Source of the DNA: a bacterium SCSIO 12741 | GTDB taxonomy: Bacteria; Bacteroidota; Bacteroidia; Flavobacteriales_G; Salibacteraceae | Assembly (NCBI GenBank): GCA_024398055.1 | Contig: CP073749.1 | Coordinates: forward strand, 558,001-622,000 | DNA length: 64,000 bases | Reading direction: 5' to 3' | In this document: positions 29,679 to 51,692 of the stretch, piece by piece | How positions within the stretch are numbered: position 1 is the stretch's first letter | Layout of the letters: the number at the start of each line of letters is the position of its first letter | Position numbers and translations under genes: made by a program | Notes under the pieces: generated by a model | The model's input: the letters and a program-made list of their open reading frames with translations, nothing else | Databases searched by the model: none | What the model was told of the DNA's origin: nothing

Positions 29679-30203
29679 ATGGAAGAAAAACATGAAATAA
29701 TCAAATTTTTGATTGAAAGAGCACATTCGGAAGCACAACTATTTTGGCAGAGAAATCACTTTCTTTTTTTCATGAACACATCTCTGATAGGAGCCTCCTA
29801 CTACCATTTTTTCCTCACTGATCCAACTCCTGATAATTTTTCACTTAAAATGATTGTTTGCCTAGGTGGTATATTCATTTCAATAATTTGGTGGTTCTTC
29901 AATAGAGCAGGAAGAAGATTGAACCATGTCTACGTGGAGGATGCAAAGTCGATCGCTCAAAGTGACAATGAGATACATAAATACTATAGCAACTCGTTGA
30001 GTGACAAAACGCCCTCCGAAGCCGTATTAAAACCACGAAAAATCATTGCATTCAATGTAAAGAAATACCTTGCTCCAACATGGTTAAACTACTATGTAAT
30101 CTACGGATTTAATATCGCTTGGATTATTCTTATGGTTTTCAAGCCAACTAAAGATGGGGTGGTAATTGAGAATTTCATGCGAAAACTCTTTGTGATTTGC
30201 TAG
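29679..30203 (+). CDS. Small membrane protein of unknown function
   Basis: A 174-residue protein I cannot assign. An acidic-amphipathic start (EEKHEIIKFLIERAHSEAQ) with WQRN leads into two close helices (residues about 27-46, NHFLFFMNTSLIGASYYHFF; and 57-74, MIVCLGGIFISIIWWFF); a cytosolic domain of about 60 residues follows, then a third helix near 138-154. The two-helix-plus-soluble-domain plan resembles several uncharacterised small membrane families. It is a lone gene and its neighbours give no clue. A terminator-like hairpin follows at 30286. Confidence 0.7.
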   Translation: MEEKHEIIKFLIERAHSEAQLFWQRNHFLFFMNTSLIGASYYHFFLTDPTPDNFSLKMIVCLGGIFISIIWWFFNRAGRRLNHVYVEDAKSIAQSDNEIHKYYSNSLSDKTPSEAVLKPRKIIAFNVKKYLAPTWLNYYVIYGFNIAWIILMVFKPTKDGVVIENFMRKLFVIC

Positions 30204-45620: not shown

Positions 45621-47936
45621 ATGAGAAAACTATTCCTATTACTTCCGCTTATCGCCATGATGGCTTCTTGCCAGGACGGTGAAAAGCAACGACCTCTTCC
45701 TAAAAAATCGAAAACTAATTACACCCAATACGTCAATCCTTTTATTGGAACGAGTAAAATGGGGCATGTTTTTCCAGGTGCTACTGCCCCTTTTGGAATG
45801 GTGCAATTGAGCCCACAAACGAACTTTGAAGTCCTGTTTACGGATGAGGGGAAATACAATAAGGAGACTTATGAATACTGTGCGGGTTACCAGCATCGCG
45901 ACACGACTATTATTGGATTCGCGCACACCAATTTTAGCGGTACGGGTCACTCGGATTTAGGGGATTTTTTGGTCATGCCTACTCATGGTAAATTGGTGCT
46001 CGACCCGCTAAAAACCAGCGAAGGCGACAAGGGTTTTTACTCCACATTTTCTCACGACAAGGAGGAAGCCTCACCCGGCTATTACAAAGTGGACCTTGAG
46101 AGCTACAACATCCAGGCAGAACTAACGGCCAGTGATCGGGTTGGTTTTCACCGATACACTTTTCCTCGATCCAATGATGCGCATATTATTTTGGATTTGG
46201 TGTACAACGTGTATCACCACGACAACAAAAATGTTTGGACTTTTATTCGCGTAGAAAACGATTCTACCATCACGGGCTATCGACAAACCAAGGGCTGGGC
46301 AAGAGACAAGAAAGTGTTTTTTGCTGCTACCTTCTCCAAGCCGTTTAAGAGCTACGGTCATAAAAAGTACGATCAGGTAAAATACGACGGCTTCTACCGA
46401 CGCTTCAAACAGGGTGAAAATTTCCCTGAAATGGCCGGAAAGAATCTACGTGCCTATTTCAATTTTGACACCGAACAAGGCGAGGTTATTCAATTAAAAT
46501 TTGCCCTATCCAACGTTAGTTCAGCGGGTGCCCTAAAAAATCTGCAGGCTGAAATTCCTCATTGGGACTTTGCCAAGACCAAGGCTGAAACGGAAGCTAA
46601 ATGGGAAAAGGAACTTTCTAAAATCGAGGTAGAAACCTTGACTGAAGAGGATAAGATCACCTTCTACACGGCTCTTTACCATACTAACCTCTCCCCTATT
46701 ATTTACGAAGATGTGGATGGGCAGTATCGAGGTTTGGATCAAAACATTCATCTATCGAAAGGATTTAAGAACTACAGCATTTTTTCGCTTTGGGATACCT
46801 ACCGGGCCTTACATCCTCTGTTTAACATTACGCAGCCGAATCGTAATAACGACATGATAAAAAGCATGTTGGCCCACCACGATGAGAGTGTGCACGATAT
46901 GTTACCCATCTGGTCTCATTATGCCAACGAAAATTGGTGTATGATTGGCTACCACGCCACCTCGGTCATTGCCGATGCTATGGCCAAAAATGTGGGCGAC
47001 TTTGATCAAAAGCATGCCCTCCAGGCTTCCGTCAATACAGCTTCGGTTCGCTACTTTGATGGTTTGGGAGAATACATCGATTACAAATATGTACCTGATG
47101 ATCTAAGCCATTCATCGGTGTCCAAAACGCTGGAGTACTCCTACAACGACTGGTGTATCGCTCAAATGGCCAAACAACTGGGCAACGCCGAAATAGACCA
47201 TCAATTTTCCCAGAGAGCCGGGTATTATAAGAATGTCTACGATCCTTCCATCGGGTTTATGCGTCCCAAGTTGTCCAATGGTGAATTCCGGGAAGAGTTT
47301 GACCCCATGGATACGCATGGCCAGGGATTTATTGAGGGCAATGCCTGGAATTATGGTCTGTATGTACCTCAGGATGTTGATGCCATGGTTGCAATGATGG
47401 GTGGCAAAGAGCGAATGACTCAGCAGCTGGATGACCTGTTTACGATGGAAATTGACGACAAGTACATTGAAAAGCATGAGGATATTACCCGCGACGGCAT
47501 AATCGGCAACTATGTTCATGGAAATGAACCTGGGCATCATATTCCCTACTTATACAATTGGACGGGCCACCCCGCAAAAACACAAGCACGGGTACGTATG
47601 ATCATGCAAACGATGTATGGTCCAACGGTTAACGGATTGTGTGGTAACGATGATGCGGGACAAATGAGCGCCTGGTATATTTTTAGCAGTTTAGGTTTTT
47701 ATCCGGTAACGCCAGGTTCTTCTGAATATGCCTTGGGTAGCCCATTGGTTAAGGAAGCCAAAATTCATTTGGAGAATGGAAAAACACTCACGATTAAAGC
47801 CCAAAACCAAAGCCCAGAGAATGTATATGTCAAGAGTGTATCGGTGAACGGAAAGAAGATTGAAAACAATTTTCTAAGCCATGACGACATCGTTCAAGGC
47901 GGTGAAATCATTTTTGAAATGGGTGCTACCCTTTGA
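45621..47936 (+). CDS. GH92 family alpha-mannosidase, lipoprotein
   Basis: A 771-residue protein with lipobox LIAMMASC at the N-terminus. The GH92 pattern is complete: NPFIGTSKMGHVFPGATAPF near the start, the block YVHGNEPGHHIPYLYNW and the metal/catalytic stretch GLCGNDDAGQMSAWYIFSSL, then LGFYPVTPG. GH92 enzymes are calcium-dependent exo-alpha-mannosidases that trim N-glycans or fungal mannan, here at the cell surface or in the periplasm. The MFS transporter starts 11 bases after its stop, so the two form an operon for release and uptake of mannose-like sugars; no SusC/SusD pair is present. Confidence 0.92.
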   Translation: MRKLFLLLPLIAMMASCQDGEKQRPLPKKSKTNYTQYVNPFIGTSKMGHVFPGATAPFGMVQLSPQTNFEVLFTDEGKYNKETYEYCAGYQHRDTTIIGFAHTNFSGTGHSDLGDFLVMPTHGKLVLDPLKTSEGDKGFYSTFSHDKEEASPGYYKVDLESYNIQAELTASDRVGFHRYTFPRSNDAHIILDLVYNVYHHDNKNVWTFIRVENDSTITGYRQTKGWARDKKVFFAATFSKPFKSYGHKKYDQVKYDGFYRRFKQGENFPEMAGKNLRAYFNFDTEQGEVIQLKFALSNVSSAGALKNLQAEIPHWDFAKTKAETEAKWEKELSKIEVETLTEEDKITFYTALYHTNLSPIIYEDVDGQYRGLDQNIHLSKGFKNYSIFSLWDTYRALHPLFNITQPNRNNDMIKSMLAHHDESVHDMLPIWSHYANENWCMIGYHATSVIADAMAKNVGDFDQKHALQASVNTASVRYFDGLGEYIDYKYVPDDLSHSSVSKTLEYSYNDWCIAQMAKQLGNAEIDHQFSQRAGYYKNVYDPSIGFMRPKLSNGEFREEFDPMDTHGQGFIEGNAWNYGLYVPQDVDAMVAMMGGKERMTQQLDDLFTMEIDDKYIEKHEDITRDGIIGNYVHGNEPGHHIPYLYNWTGHPAKTQARVRMIMQTMYGPTVNGLCGNDDAGQMSAWYIFSSLGFYPVTPGSSEYALGSPLVKEAKIHLENGKTLTIKAQNQSPENVYVKSVSVNGKKIENNFLSHDDIVQGGEIIFEMGATL

Positions 47937-47946
47937 AACTCCGGGC

Positions 47947-49353
47947 ATGAATAAATTGACTTCCAACTACAAGGCACATTTCTCCCTGCTTTCCTCTCTG
48001 TTTTTTATGTGGGGATTCATTACCGTGATGAACGACGTTTTGATCAATACCTTCAAGGGCGTTTTTGATCTTACTGCTCCACAAAGAGCCCTGGTACAGT
48101 TTTCCTTTTTTGGTGCGTTTTTTATCGTTTCGCTGATCTACTTTATCCTGTCCTCCTCCACCGGTAGAGATCCCATTAATACCATTGGGTATAAAAAGGG
48201 AATGTTCTATAGCCTGCTCATTTGTGGAATTGGGTGTTTGTTGTTTTACCCGGCTTCATTAATTCACTCCTATTATGCCTTTTTATTGGCTCTGTTTACC
48301 CTGGCCTCAGGAGTAACCATGCTGCAAATCTGTGCCAATCCTTACGCTACTATTTTGGGAGATAAGGAAAGTGCTTCCAGTAGATTGAATCAAGCTCAGG
48401 GACTGAATTCCTTGGGAACCACCTTAGGTCCTATTGTAGGTACGATATTGATTTACAAAGTCTTTTCGAAGGGAACTCTCACCGTAGAAAGTATCGCCAA
48501 CACCTACCTGATCTATGGCCTTGCCTTTATTCTTTTGGCCCTGGTGGTGCTAAAAAGTAAAATGCCTGCCTTTAGAAATAGGGAGAACATTCCTCCTGGC
48601 CTGGGAGTGTTAAAACACAAGCACCTCGTTTTTGGGATTCTTGGAATTGCCTTCTATGTAGGGTCCGAAGTAGCTATTGGAAGCTGGATTGTTGAATTCA
48701 TTAAACTCGATCACATTGCCGGGTTGGCCGAAGACGATGCCAGCTATTTCCTTTCCTTCTTTTGGGGTGGTTTGATGATTGGGCGTTTAATGGCGGGAAT
48801 ATCCTTAAACAGCTCCCTTACAAAAGCGAAAAAGTACCAATACATGCTTCTCTCCTCTTTGGGAGCCTTTGCCGTTATTTACCTGGCGACCAGCTTAAAG
48901 TATAGCGACGGAACTTTTCATTTCAGTCCTATTCATCCCGAGCAAATTGCCATCTATTTGGTTCTCATTGCACTCAATTTTGGTTCCTTCCTACTGACGT
49001 TTAATAAGCCTGCGAAGGGGCTGGTCCTTTTTTCGGCCATCAACGCTGTATTAATTTCCATTGGAATTTGGGGAAGCGGTGAGTTGGCATTTTGGGCCAT
49101 GATCGGTACCGGTCTGTTCTTTTCCATTGGCTGGTCCAATATCTTTTCTCTGGCCATTAAGGATTTAGGCAACCTTACCAGTCAAGGGTCCTCCTTACTC
49201 GTTATGGCCATTGTAGGTGGCGCTGTCCTTCCTGGAATACAAAGTTTTATCATCGAATACCAGGGCGTTCAGATTTCATTTGTTGTCCCCCTAATTGGTA
49301 TTTTTTACCTGATATTTTATGGGTTGAAGGGGCATAAAATAAAGGTCCGATAG
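47947..49353 (+). CDS. Sugar MFS transporter (FucP/GluP-like)
   Basis: A 468-residue protein with 12 predicted helices, starting NYKAHFSLLSSLFFMWGFIT and containing LINTFKGVF and the early block MLQICANPYATILGD that is characteristic of the FucP/glucose-galactose MFS group; NQAQGLNSLGTTLGP is likewise typical. It takes up a hexose by proton symport. I used ATG 47947 because the upstream frame overlaps the GH92 gene. It is co-transcribed with GH92. A decayed copy of its last 16 codons is found at 51024-51071. Confidence 0.9.
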   Translation: MNKLTSNYKAHFSLLSSLFFMWGFITVMNDVLINTFKGVFDLTAPQRALVQFSFFGAFFIVSLIYFILSSSTGRDPINTIGYKKGMFYSLLICGIGCLLFYPASLIHSYYAFLLALFTLASGVTMLQICANPYATILGDKESASSRLNQAQGLNSLGTTLGPIVGTILIYKVFSKGTLTVESIANTYLIYGLAFILLALVVLKSKMPAFRNRENIPPGLGVLKHKHLVFGILGIAFYVGSEVAIGSWIVEFIKLDHIAGLAEDDASYFLSFFWGGLMIGRLMAGISLNSSLTKAKKYQYMLLSSLGAFAVIYLATSLKYSDGTFHFSPIHPEQIAIYLVLIALNFGSFLLTFNKPAKGLVLFSAINAVLISIGIWGSGELAFWAMIGTGLFFSIGWSNIFSLAIKDLGNLTSQGSSLLVMAIVGGAVLPGIQSFIIEYQGVQISFVVPLIGIFYLIFYGLKGHKIKVR

Positions 49354-49456
49354 CATTCGATATTGCAGTAATCTGAAGCTCACCACCTACCTCTTCCAAG
49401 AAGCTTTTCCAACTTAGACCTTTAATCCAAGTTCCAAAATAATTACCCTGAAATAC

Positions 49457-49503
49457 GAAACCAGTTTCATTTTATTTTTACACTTTTGTGAAACCAGTTT
49501 CAT
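49457..49503. promoter_or_regulatory. Twin palindromic operator before the marR gene
   Basis: GAAACCAGTTTC occurs twice, at 49457-49468 and 49490-49501, each a 5-2-5 palindrome, followed in both copies by AT. Centres are 33 bases apart (three turns of helix), with TACACTTTTG, a promoter-like stretch, between them. This is the expected layout for an autoregulating MarR repressor. Confidence 0.7.
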
Positions 49504-49524
49504 AAATGGAATGATTTATGGGGA

Positions 49525-50052
49525 ATGGAATTAGCTCAAAACATAAACGAAAGGAAGGCTTATTCACCAATGGAAGAGGACTTTATAAAAAGCTTAGATC
49601 TAATAGGATATACAGCGAGAATTAGAAGGCTCAGTGACAATCTCAATAAAATGGGCAAAGTGGTTTATAAAGATTTAGACCTTGAGATCGAGCCCAATTG
49701 GCACCTTGTTCTACTGATATTAGAAAGAGAGGAAGAGTTAACAGCTACTGAAATTGCTGAGCACTTATCATTCTCACACACGGCGATCATTAAGATTACC
49801 AAAAAAATGGTGCGCTCTAATTTCTTAAATGCCCAAAAGTCCCCAACTGATGGTCGAAAGCAACTTTATTCTCTATCTGACAAAGCCATCAAACAACTTC
49901 CAAAACTCAAACAAATATGGAATGACATTGCCGAGGTCCATCAACAATATGTGAGCAAAACATTCCTAAAGGAGCTTACCAAAATAGAAAACTCACTGAC
50001 TCAAAAGTCAACCATAATTAGGGTAAAAGAACTGTATGATAAGCGTAAATAA
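49525..50052 (+). CDS. MarR-family transcriptional regulator
   Basis: A 175-residue winged-helix protein: long N-terminal helix, then EELTATEIAEHLSFSHTAII (helix-turn-helix) and KSPTDGRKQLYSLSDKA (wing). Such dimers repress their own operon and release DNA on binding a small ligand. The twin palindrome 22-68 bases upstream is the likely target. It overlaps the GNAT gene by 17 bases. Confidence 0.9.
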   Translation: MELAQNINERKAYSPMEEDFIKSLDLIGYTARIRRLSDNLNKMGKVVYKDLDLEIEPNWHLVLLILEREEELTATEIAEHLSFSHTAIIKITKKMVRSNFLNAQKSPTDGRKQLYSLSDKAIKQLPKLKQIWNDIAEVHQQYVSKTFLKELTKIENSLTQKSTIIRVKELYDKRK

Positions 50053-50554
50053 TCATATCCAGTTAAAACCTCTCAAAGTGATGGATCGGGATAAACTTAT
50101 CTCTATAATAAATGAGATCTATCCTTCGACTTATGGTTATTTATGGACAGATCAGGGCGAGAAGTATTTATCCCAAATCTATTCAATGGAAAACCTCACC
50201 CTTGAACTTAAAGATTCAGAATCACCATATTACTTCATAACTCATCATTCAGAGATCGTAGGTATTTTGAAATTCAGGAAAGAGCTTCCTAAACAACATA
50301 TTCGTTTACAACGAATTTATATTCATCCAAAACATCAAGGTAAGAGTATTGGAAAGGCTCTTTTTGGTTGGATAGAAAAAACCTATCAATCCGACTTTCA
50401 AACGGTAAGTTTAGAAGTCATGAAATCTGAAAGCAAGGCAATCCGGTTCTACGAAAAAATGGGAATGCAATTAGTTGGAAATTCCTCATTGAATTTCAAC
50501 CACCTAATACCAGAATTCAAACAAACATTGATTTACCAAAAACAATTGAAATGA
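50036..50554 (+). CDS. GNAT-family N-acetyltransferase
   Basis: A 172-residue protein with the acetyl-CoA site in IYIHPKHQGKSIGKALFGWI and the C-terminal FYEKMGMQLVGN block of GNAT enzymes. The acceptor is unknown; in a MarR operon, modification of a small toxic molecule or an amino acid is plausible. It overlaps marR by 17 and the cupin gene by four bases, so all three are translated together. Confidence 0.88.
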   Translation: MISVNNHIQLKPLKVMDRDKLISIINEIYPSTYGYLWTDQGEKYLSQIYSMENLTLELKDSESPYYFITHHSEIVGILKFRKELPKQHIRLQRIYIHPKHQGKSIGKALFGWIEKTYQSDFQTVSLEVMKSESKAIRFYEKMGMQLVGNSSLNFNHLIPEFKQTLIYQKQLK

Positions 50555-50928
50555 GTAATAAATACGATTACAACCAACAAATGAACGTGTTATACAACCA
50601 TCACGAATTAATCGATGTGCCAAAAATTGTATCAACTTGCAAGGACAAATGGTTTAACCAGACACTAACTAAGGTTAATGACAGTGTGGTAAGAATTGGA
50701 ATAGTGGAAGGTGAATACCACTGGCATAAACACGACAATGATGATGAATTTTTCTTTGTTCTAAGTGGCCAATTAATCATCGAGTTAGAGGATAAGACTA
50801 TTGAACTCAATCCGAATGAAGGAACAACCATAAGCAAGGGAGTTATGCATAAACCCATAGCCCCTGAAAAAACAGTTATGCTAATGGTTGAAACCGCAGA
50901 AATCGATCCCATCGGAGAAGAGAAGTGA
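50551..50928 (+). CDS. Cupin-domain protein
   Basis: A 125-residue single cupin: motif 1 YHWHKHDNDDEFFFVLSG with the metal-type His-x-His and Glu, and motif 2 GVMHKPIAPEK with His. Many small cupins like this are unassigned metal-binding enzymes or sensors. It closes the marR-GNAT-cupin operon. Confidence 0.85.
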   Translation: MSNKYDYNQQMNVLYNHHELIDVPKIVSTCKDKWFNQTLTKVNDSVVRIGIVEGEYHWHKHDNDDEFFFVLSGQLIIELEDKTIELNPNEGTTISKGVMHKPIAPEKTVMLMVETAEIDPIGEEK

Positions 50929-51023
50929 TGGCTGTTTGAACATTATCAGCGCACCTACCAAACAAGATCTTATTATCGAAAATCATAGTCTTCAAATTCC
51001 ACTTTAGTTCCTTTAAGCGACGC

Positions 51024-51071
51024 TTTTACTTGATATTTTTGAGGTTGAAGGGCCATAAGATTAAGACTTAA
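51024..51071 (+). pseudogene. Remnant of a second MFS transporter 3' end
   Basis: In one frame this reads FYLIFLRLKGHKIKT and stop, close to the last residues of the intact transporter (FYLIFYGLKGHKIKVR and stop, 49304-49353). At base level about three-quarters of 51 positions agree. Nothing further upstream is clearly related. It brackets the marR-GNAT-cupin cassette together with the true 3' end. Confidence 0.6.
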
Positions 51072-51125
51072 TAGATATTTGATTCGAAACACAATTCAAA
51101 CCTCACAATTAATCACTCAATCCCG

Positions 51126-51692
51126 ATGTCTTCATTCAAAACGATTTTCTCAGAAAAGTATTCGCTAAGCCCAGTGGCCTGTGATACCCTCTTTTCCGAA
51201 ATGAAGGAAGTGGAAAAGAAAAAGGGAGAAATTCTGATCCGGGAAGGCGAGGTACATTCTTCTATCTACTTTATCAAAAAAGGTGCGCTCAGGAGTTTCT
51301 ACATCAATGATGAAGGTAAGGATGTAACACTCTGGTTCGGATTTGAGGCCGATGTGGCCGCATCGCTCAGCAATGTTATTGAGCTAAAACCATCGGTTGA
51401 AAACATTGAATTTCTGGAAGACTCGACCATTCTTAAGATCCAGCGATCGGTGCTGTTTGACTTGTATCACTCCAATTTGGAACTGGCCAATTTTGGTAGA
51501 CACCTGGCCGAAATTGCCCTGATCGAGATGGAACAACAGATTTTATCCACCCAATTCGTCGATGCCAAAAGCCGGTATAAAGCCCTGATTCAAAAATCCC
51601 CTCACGTTCTTCAACGGGTCAAATTGGGGCATATCGCATCCTACCTGGGCATCTCACAAGTAACGCTTAGCAGAATACGAGCGGAGAGCTGA
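51126..51692 (+). CDS. Crp/Fnr-family transcriptional regulator
   Basis: A 188-residue protein with an N-terminal cyclic-nucleotide-binding-type jelly roll (KKGEILIREGEVHSSIYFIKKGALRSF) and a C-terminal helix-turn-helix (KLGHIASYLGISQVTLSRIR). The residues that would bind cAMP are not clearly conserved, as in most Bacteroidota members. It is followed by SMR and SDR genes, which it may control. Confidence 0.87.
   Translation: MSSFKTIFSEKYSLSPVACDTLFSEMKEVEKKKGEILIREGEVHSSIYFIKKGALRSFYINDEGKDVTLWFGFEADVAASLSNVIELKPSVENIEFLEDSTILKIQRSVLFDLYHSNLELANFGRHLAEIALIEMEQQILSTQFVDAKSRYKALIQKSPHVLQRVKLGHIASYLGISQVTLSRIRAES

Follow-up and report, generated by a model that had tools for sequence, protein, structure and literature searches.

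A decayed copy of a sugar transporter gene end beside a marR-GNAT-cupin operon in a member of the Salibacteraceae

In the genome of the bacterium SCSIO 12741 (Bacteroidota, Salibacteraceae; assembly GCA_024398055.1), the last codons of a gene encoding an MFS sugar transporter appear to return downstream of a compact marR-GNAT-cupin operon. This raises the question of whether the operon entered at the end of the transporter gene and left a duplicate of that end behind, or whether the second copy is the remainder of a former neighboring transporter gene. We have addressed this question in a window of 64,000 nucleotides (positions 558,001 to 622,000 of contig CP073749.1, forward strand), to which all positions below refer. 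The features of the locus are collected in Table 1.

Table 1. Coordinates of genes, repeat copies and palindromes at the locus.
Feature	Position	Strand	Evidence or remark
GH92 glycosidase gene	45621..47936	+	directly upstream of the transporter gene; both GH92 domains (catalytic, N-terminal) exceed the Pfam cut-off
Intact sugar MFS transporter gene (GluP/FucP-like)	47947..49353	+	NCBIfam TIGR01272 gluP, 222.7 bits (cut-off 202.55)
First repeat copy (last MFS codons and 8 nt past the stop)	49239..49361	+	gapped alignment
Distal palindrome GAAACCAGTTTC	49457..49468	+	probable MarR operator; exact 14-nt repeat, 5-2-5 palindrome
Proximal palindrome GAAACCAGTTTC	49490..49501	+	probable MarR operator; identical to the distal copy, at a distance of 33 nt
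MarR-family regulator gene	49525..50052	+	Pfam MarR_2 39.0 bits (cut-off 27), MarR 36.3 bits (cut-off 24.6)
GNAT acetyltransferase gene	50036..50554	+	Pfam Acetyltransf_1 56.7 bits (cut-off 20.7)
Cupin gene	50551..50928	+	Pfam Cupin_2 40.9 bits (cut-off 27.2)
Second repeat copy (decayed MFS gene end)	50962..51083	+	gapped alignment and shuffled controls
Crp/Fnr-type regulator gene, downstream flank	51126..51692	+	Pfam cNMP_binding above cut-off

The transporter gene and the second copy of its end

The transporter gene is intact, with an uncertain start codon (the list of open reading frames begins at 47881). Its product, which scores below the cut-off of the Pfam model MFS_1, is 61–66% identical to homologues from five named Bacteroidota loci and has one match in its own genome at E ≤ 0.001. 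The earlier note had described the return of the last transporter codons, including the stop, behind the cupin gene. This observation is real, and the repeat is longer than claimed, with a gapped alignment extending over about 122 nt, in which some 40 codons, the stop codon and a few following bases are present twice and in codon phase. The identity of three-quarters given in that note is slightly low for the ungapped core, where 42 nt in direct orientation are 83% identical (49303–49344 and 51024–51065), and a little high for the coding part of the long alignment, where 75 of 110 pairs are the same (68%). Mismatches are found throughout and the longest identical run measures 10 nt. The second copy carries two deletions of 1 nt in its coding part and one 1-nt insertion past the stop.

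The similarity between both copies is far above what is obtained with controls. When compared with the following 1752 nt, the end of the transporter gene (49254–49373) reaches a local score of 65, whereas none of 500 dinucleotide shuffles exceeded 37 and the best of 68 other segments of the window, searched on both strands, scored 36. Similarly, the last 123 nt of the gene, used as query against 4 kb of downstream sequence, give a score of 78 compared to a maximum of 40 in 300 shuffles preserving adjacent letter pairs. Thus, in neither series did a shuffle attain the observed score (0/500 and 0/300), which settles the concern, raised together with the original proposal, that the alignment might be no better than chance. 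The 95 nt preceding the core, taken alone, match the body of the transporter gene with a score of 37, which was reached in none of 300 single-letter shuffles (maximum 35), and this match falls at the colinear place. Among seven families of direct repeats in the 64-kb window (at least 35 nt, copies within 6 kb), this repeat shows the highest similarity, while copies in the remaining six are 68–76% identical to their reference. A third copy was not found in the window, where the best score elsewhere was 42, compared to 78 for the second copy with a nearly equal query. A DNA search of the whole genome with the first copy revealed no other close copy, although the same search also missed the known second one, so that diverged copies may exist elsewhere in the genome. 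It is true that both copies are rich in AT and that an AT-rich control locus from Lutibacter maritimus (L032) showed a self-repeat with a score of 50; the latter is spurious, since 31 of 300 shuffles of that locus reach the same value. In light of the scores in the window, its colinear upstream extension and the low scores elsewhere, chance or low-complexity similarity can hardly account for the resemblance.

Two further candidate features in the vicinity were rejected. An extension of the second copy up to the stop codon of the cupin gene is suggestive by eye and was equaled by 21.8% of 1000 shuffles. On the minus strand, an open frame of 42 codons (49343–49468) runs across the transporter stop; it has no match in Pfam and was discarded as a remnant of a reverse-strand gene between this stop and the palindromes.

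The second of the two copies is the decayed one. Near the C-terminus of the transporter, a Tyr/Phe-Gly motif contains a glycine in all 80 named homologues, which is retained in the first copy, while the second shows Leu-Arg in its place. With an X placed at its two broken codons, the peptide encoded by the second copy agrees with the transporter of this locus at 21 of 34 positions and with any of the 80 homologues at no more than 14, whereas the transporter itself agrees with homologues at up to 22 positions among the 20 matches listed. As the peptide is closer to this protein than to any of the homologues, the second copy most likely is a relic from the lineage of this transporter, though 34 residues are few.

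The distribution of differences over codon positions provides a glimpse on how the copies may have diverged. Of the 35 differences, 14 are found at first, 5 at second and 16 at third positions. The resulting share of second positions (0.14) falls into the range found in five pairs of orthologues (0.12–0.18) and deviates from one third with a P of 0.02 (calculated on 6/36, with one pair located just outside the alignment), which hints that both copies had perhaps already diverged as coding genes. This scarcity would be expected if the locus had once contained two transporter genes in a row, the second of which was either replaced by the operon or lost in a deletion except for its last 40 or so codons, and such an old tandem paralogue accounts for it no less well than a duplication that arose upon insertion. 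We consider this scenario possible, if somewhat short of probable. Unlike in the pairs of orthologues, differences are almost as frequent at first as at third positions, which speaks against it and fits a history where part of the divergence is decay. It is also at odds with the fact that no body of a second gene is detectable beyond the approximately 122 nt of the repeat.

The operon and its predicted regulation

The three genes located between both copies are as had been described, with open frames and Pfam domains above cut-off, and the idea of a compact cassette beside a decayed transporter end holds: marR and the GNAT gene share 17 nt, the GNAT and cupin genes share 4 nt, and paired palindromes precede marR, for which a later start codon is possible. 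Compared to 48 mechanically picked open reading frames of the window, which include the three genes themselves (mean GC 0.427, standard deviation 0.032), the GC content is low in marR (0.368, z −1.9), the GNAT gene (0.333, z −3.0) and the cupin gene (0.373, z −1.7), whereas it is ordinary in the flanking transporter (0.435) and Crp-type (0.447) genes. Only the GNAT gene is lower than the mean by more than two standard deviations. Since marR and the cupin gene remain within this limit, and since another frame of the window (29679–30203) has a GC content of 0.358, which is below that of either, the low values are no proof of a foreign origin.

A truncation of the cupin marking the site of junction was ruled out, as the alignments with five homologues of 54–79% identity extend to residue 123 or 125 out of 125, in one case (L182) with the N-terminal part missing in the frame of the homologue. 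The cupin thus appears full length, and the lack of a broken junction at the right-hand join counts against an insertion at this place. The genome contains a second cupin gene (L002, C1:65768–66097) that is 44% identical and that has neither a MarR nor a GNAT gene beside it (locus L202), and it contains no second match to MarR at E ≤ 0.001. With 37% identity of the closest GNAT found, compared to the 54–79% of the closest cupins, our sample contains no common close donor of the genes.

The paired palindromes suggest how the operon might be controlled. Among the 11 best MarR relatives, to which this survey was confined out of 25 MarR loci (the other 14 being L141–L154), six show two 5-2-5 palindromes with similar sequences in front of marR, four have a single one, two of which are accompanied by further AT-rich palindromes, and one has none, while shuffling gives 0.08–0.55 palindromes per stretch. 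The pairs upstream of marR in L130, L131 and L134–L137 consist of half-sites GTAGT/ACTAC or GTAAC/GTTAC, which resemble the GAAAC/GTTTC pair of the window in their form, and suggest a subgroup of MarR regulators whose operator code can be read. The presence of such pairs here and in six of the 11 relatives supports autorepression from two operators, and the operon is probably autoregulated, in that MarR would bind to its own palindromes. MarR would repress from both sites until released by a small ligand and, more speculatively, the GNAT and cupin proteins may handle this ligand. Judging from their families, our guess would be that the two proteins act on a small toxic molecule.

The motif TAnnTTTG, the −7 promoter element of Bacteroidota, is located just before the palindrome nearest to the gene in seven of the 11 relatives and after it in one; the window contains no exact match. 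A promoter scan restricted to sigma-70 types found three sites compared to 6.6 in shuffled sequences, hence fewer, and no terminator. The sequence of the palindrome occurs four times in the genome, two of which are the sites before marR, and since its reversed control is found equally often it does not appear to be a regulon-wide signal.

The neighborhood in other genomes

A comparison with the best 80 named loci of the transporter, with flanks of at most 6 kb that are shorter in several cases, did not reveal any relative of MarR, GNAT or cupin at E ≤ 1e-4 (0/80). Other neighbors recur: relatives of the GH92 gene are found in nine of these loci and a Crp-type relative just downstream of the transporter in one (L076). 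The GH92 gene, which precedes the transporter in the window (45621–49353), follows it in L029, L031 and L033, such that the pair is kept with its order swapped. Tandem relatives of the transporter were detected in a single locus, from Mucilaginibacter polytrichastri (L056), which provides a precedent for two neighboring transporter genes and at the same time illustrates that such pairs are rare in this sample (1/80). In the 76 loci with at least 500 nt downstream of the transporter, the best score of a self-repeat was 50, compared to 78 in the window. Closer to the organism, the family is represented by 35 genomes including its own, with no other genome of the same genus, and a search of 24 family genomes with the transporter matched six. 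Identities were 43–48% in the matching segments that span 300 residues or the C-terminal part, and lower in some segments.

The earlier note had also suggested looking for the marR-GNAT-cupin trio elsewhere. This search found none in the sampled genomes, where only pairs of MarR with GNAT and of MarR with cupin were encountered. The trio was absent from 1.5-kb flanks of seven GNAT relatives (L110–L115, L208; E ≤ 1e-22 in 395 genomes, own excluded), in two of which (L112, L208) weak matches to MarR (E 0.03–0.05) lie inside the frame of another gene and were taken as chance. It was equally absent from 1.5-kb flanks of eight close cupin relatives (L179–L183, L209–L211), one flank of L209 being ended by the end of its contig, and from the surroundings of the 25 MarR loci L130–L154, of which L153 gave no match; MarR relatives at E ≤ 1e-15 were found in 25 of 395 genomes, own included. 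A literature search for such an operon in Bacteroidetes retrieved a review of jumbo phages as its only match.

The pairs share certain features with the operon of the window. In L130, L134 and L136, marR is closely followed, as here, by a gene whose GNAT domain exceeds the Pfam cut-off, L135 appears similar on visual inspection, and paired palindromes are found just before marR in all four loci. In contrast, their GNAT proteins have no tblastn match to the one of the window at E ≤ 1, and no cupin relative is found alongside. Weak matches to GNAT beside MarR were obtained in L136, L141, L143, L150 and L151 (E 1.5e-4 to 0.02). In three of them (L143, L150, L151) the MarR frame has a length of 315–340 codons and shows weak similarity to GNAT beside its MarR part, and these frames probably encode MarR-GNAT fusions. 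In a genome of the same family (L139), MarR (32% identity) and cupin (36%) are adjacent on one strand, with no GNAT gene between them as there is in the window, and a gene with a Glyoxalase domain and a PNPOx_N gene follow. Next to two of the cupin relatives (L180 and L182, 67% and 79% identical), there is an RloB gene (Pfam PF13707), which is preceded by a gene that by eye resembles an AAA ATPase; both could possibly constitute a defense pair. In L210, the cupin frame also contains a part resembling a methyltransferase, again by eye.

Origin of the arrangement

Our preferred interpretation of these observations is that an operon of low GC content was acquired and now resides between the intact transporter gene and the relic of a second copy of its end, to which we assign a probability of about one half. 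We infer this acquisition and its mechanism from a repeat that stands above all controls, from the closeness of the relic to the transporter of the same locus, and from the low GC content of the operon compared to its ordinary flanks, in conjunction with the absence of MarR, GNAT and cupin relatives from the 80 transporter loci and of any comparable self-repeat there. In the proposed event, foreign DNA would have recombined with the 3′ end of the transporter gene and thereby become part of the chromosome, for example if a circular or end-joined molecule carrying a transporter end had undergone a single crossover there. The gene would then remain whole to one side of the insert, and an incomplete duplicate of its end, decayed later, would lie to the other.

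A related outcome has been observed in Escherichia coli. There, 56 of 60 analyzed clones yielded the PCR product that indicates a partially duplicated lacZ, and in 14 sequenced clones 109–950 bp of the lacZ end were duplicated, which was ascribed to a single crossover (PMC3240628). This Campbell-type integration, found alongside homology-facilitated illegitimate recombination (HFIR), likewise places foreign DNA between a complete gene and a direct repeat of part of its end, and the size of the duplication is about that found here (PMC3240628). In our case, the coding part of the copies is no more than about 68% identical, and the event is read from sequence instead of being observed. HFIR proper generally leaves a deletion and not a duplication (PMC3240628). 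Tandem duplications are also known to arise when merodiploids form by transformation (PMC3784515).

The position of the repeat at the 3′ end of a gene, spanning the stop codon, could also be the work of a site-specific element or transposon, which left attachment sites or a target duplication behind and whose recombinase was subsequently lost. Many integrase attachment sites are located at such gene ends. Yet a repeat of about 122 nt that keeps codon phase and shows decay along its length, with identical runs of up to 10 nt, is not what such an element would be expected to leave, even if decay could have blurred the identity between the ends of a short attachment core. In a search confined to Phage_integrase, and thus to one among the recombinase and transposase families, the three matches of the genome map to about 2.6, 2.9 and 4.6 Mb, remote from the window at 0.56–0.62 Mb. 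Moreover, neither GNAT nor MarR, the two proteins searched, has a relative in IMG/VR, a DNA search gave no plasmid match, and the GNAT relatives in nine plasmid records are only 26–32% identical. We therefore regard an origin of this kind as improbable. Of the two origins that the earlier note had considered, a short target duplication at the site of entry agrees poorly with these properties of the repeat and with the lack of a tyrosine integrase nearby, whereas a duplication of the gene end would fit if brought about by recombination, as would the replacement of a former second copy.

A more general version of the preferred interpretation, in which the 3′ end of the transporter gene would be a recurrent landing place where lineages of the group pick up small regulated operons, through recombination that restores the gene and leaves behind a duplicate of its end in decay, appears very unlikely.

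The kind of event considered here is already known and is an ordinary scar of gene acquisition or gene duplication, and neither this fossil nor the arrangement of operators alters current views. For the respective MarR subgroup, the clear operator arrangement makes regulation easy to test. The locus itself offers a fossil from which one can read how a small operon with its own regulation would have come to lie beside a sugar-transport gene without harming it, with the gene remaining whole and the decaying copy of its end as the only trace.
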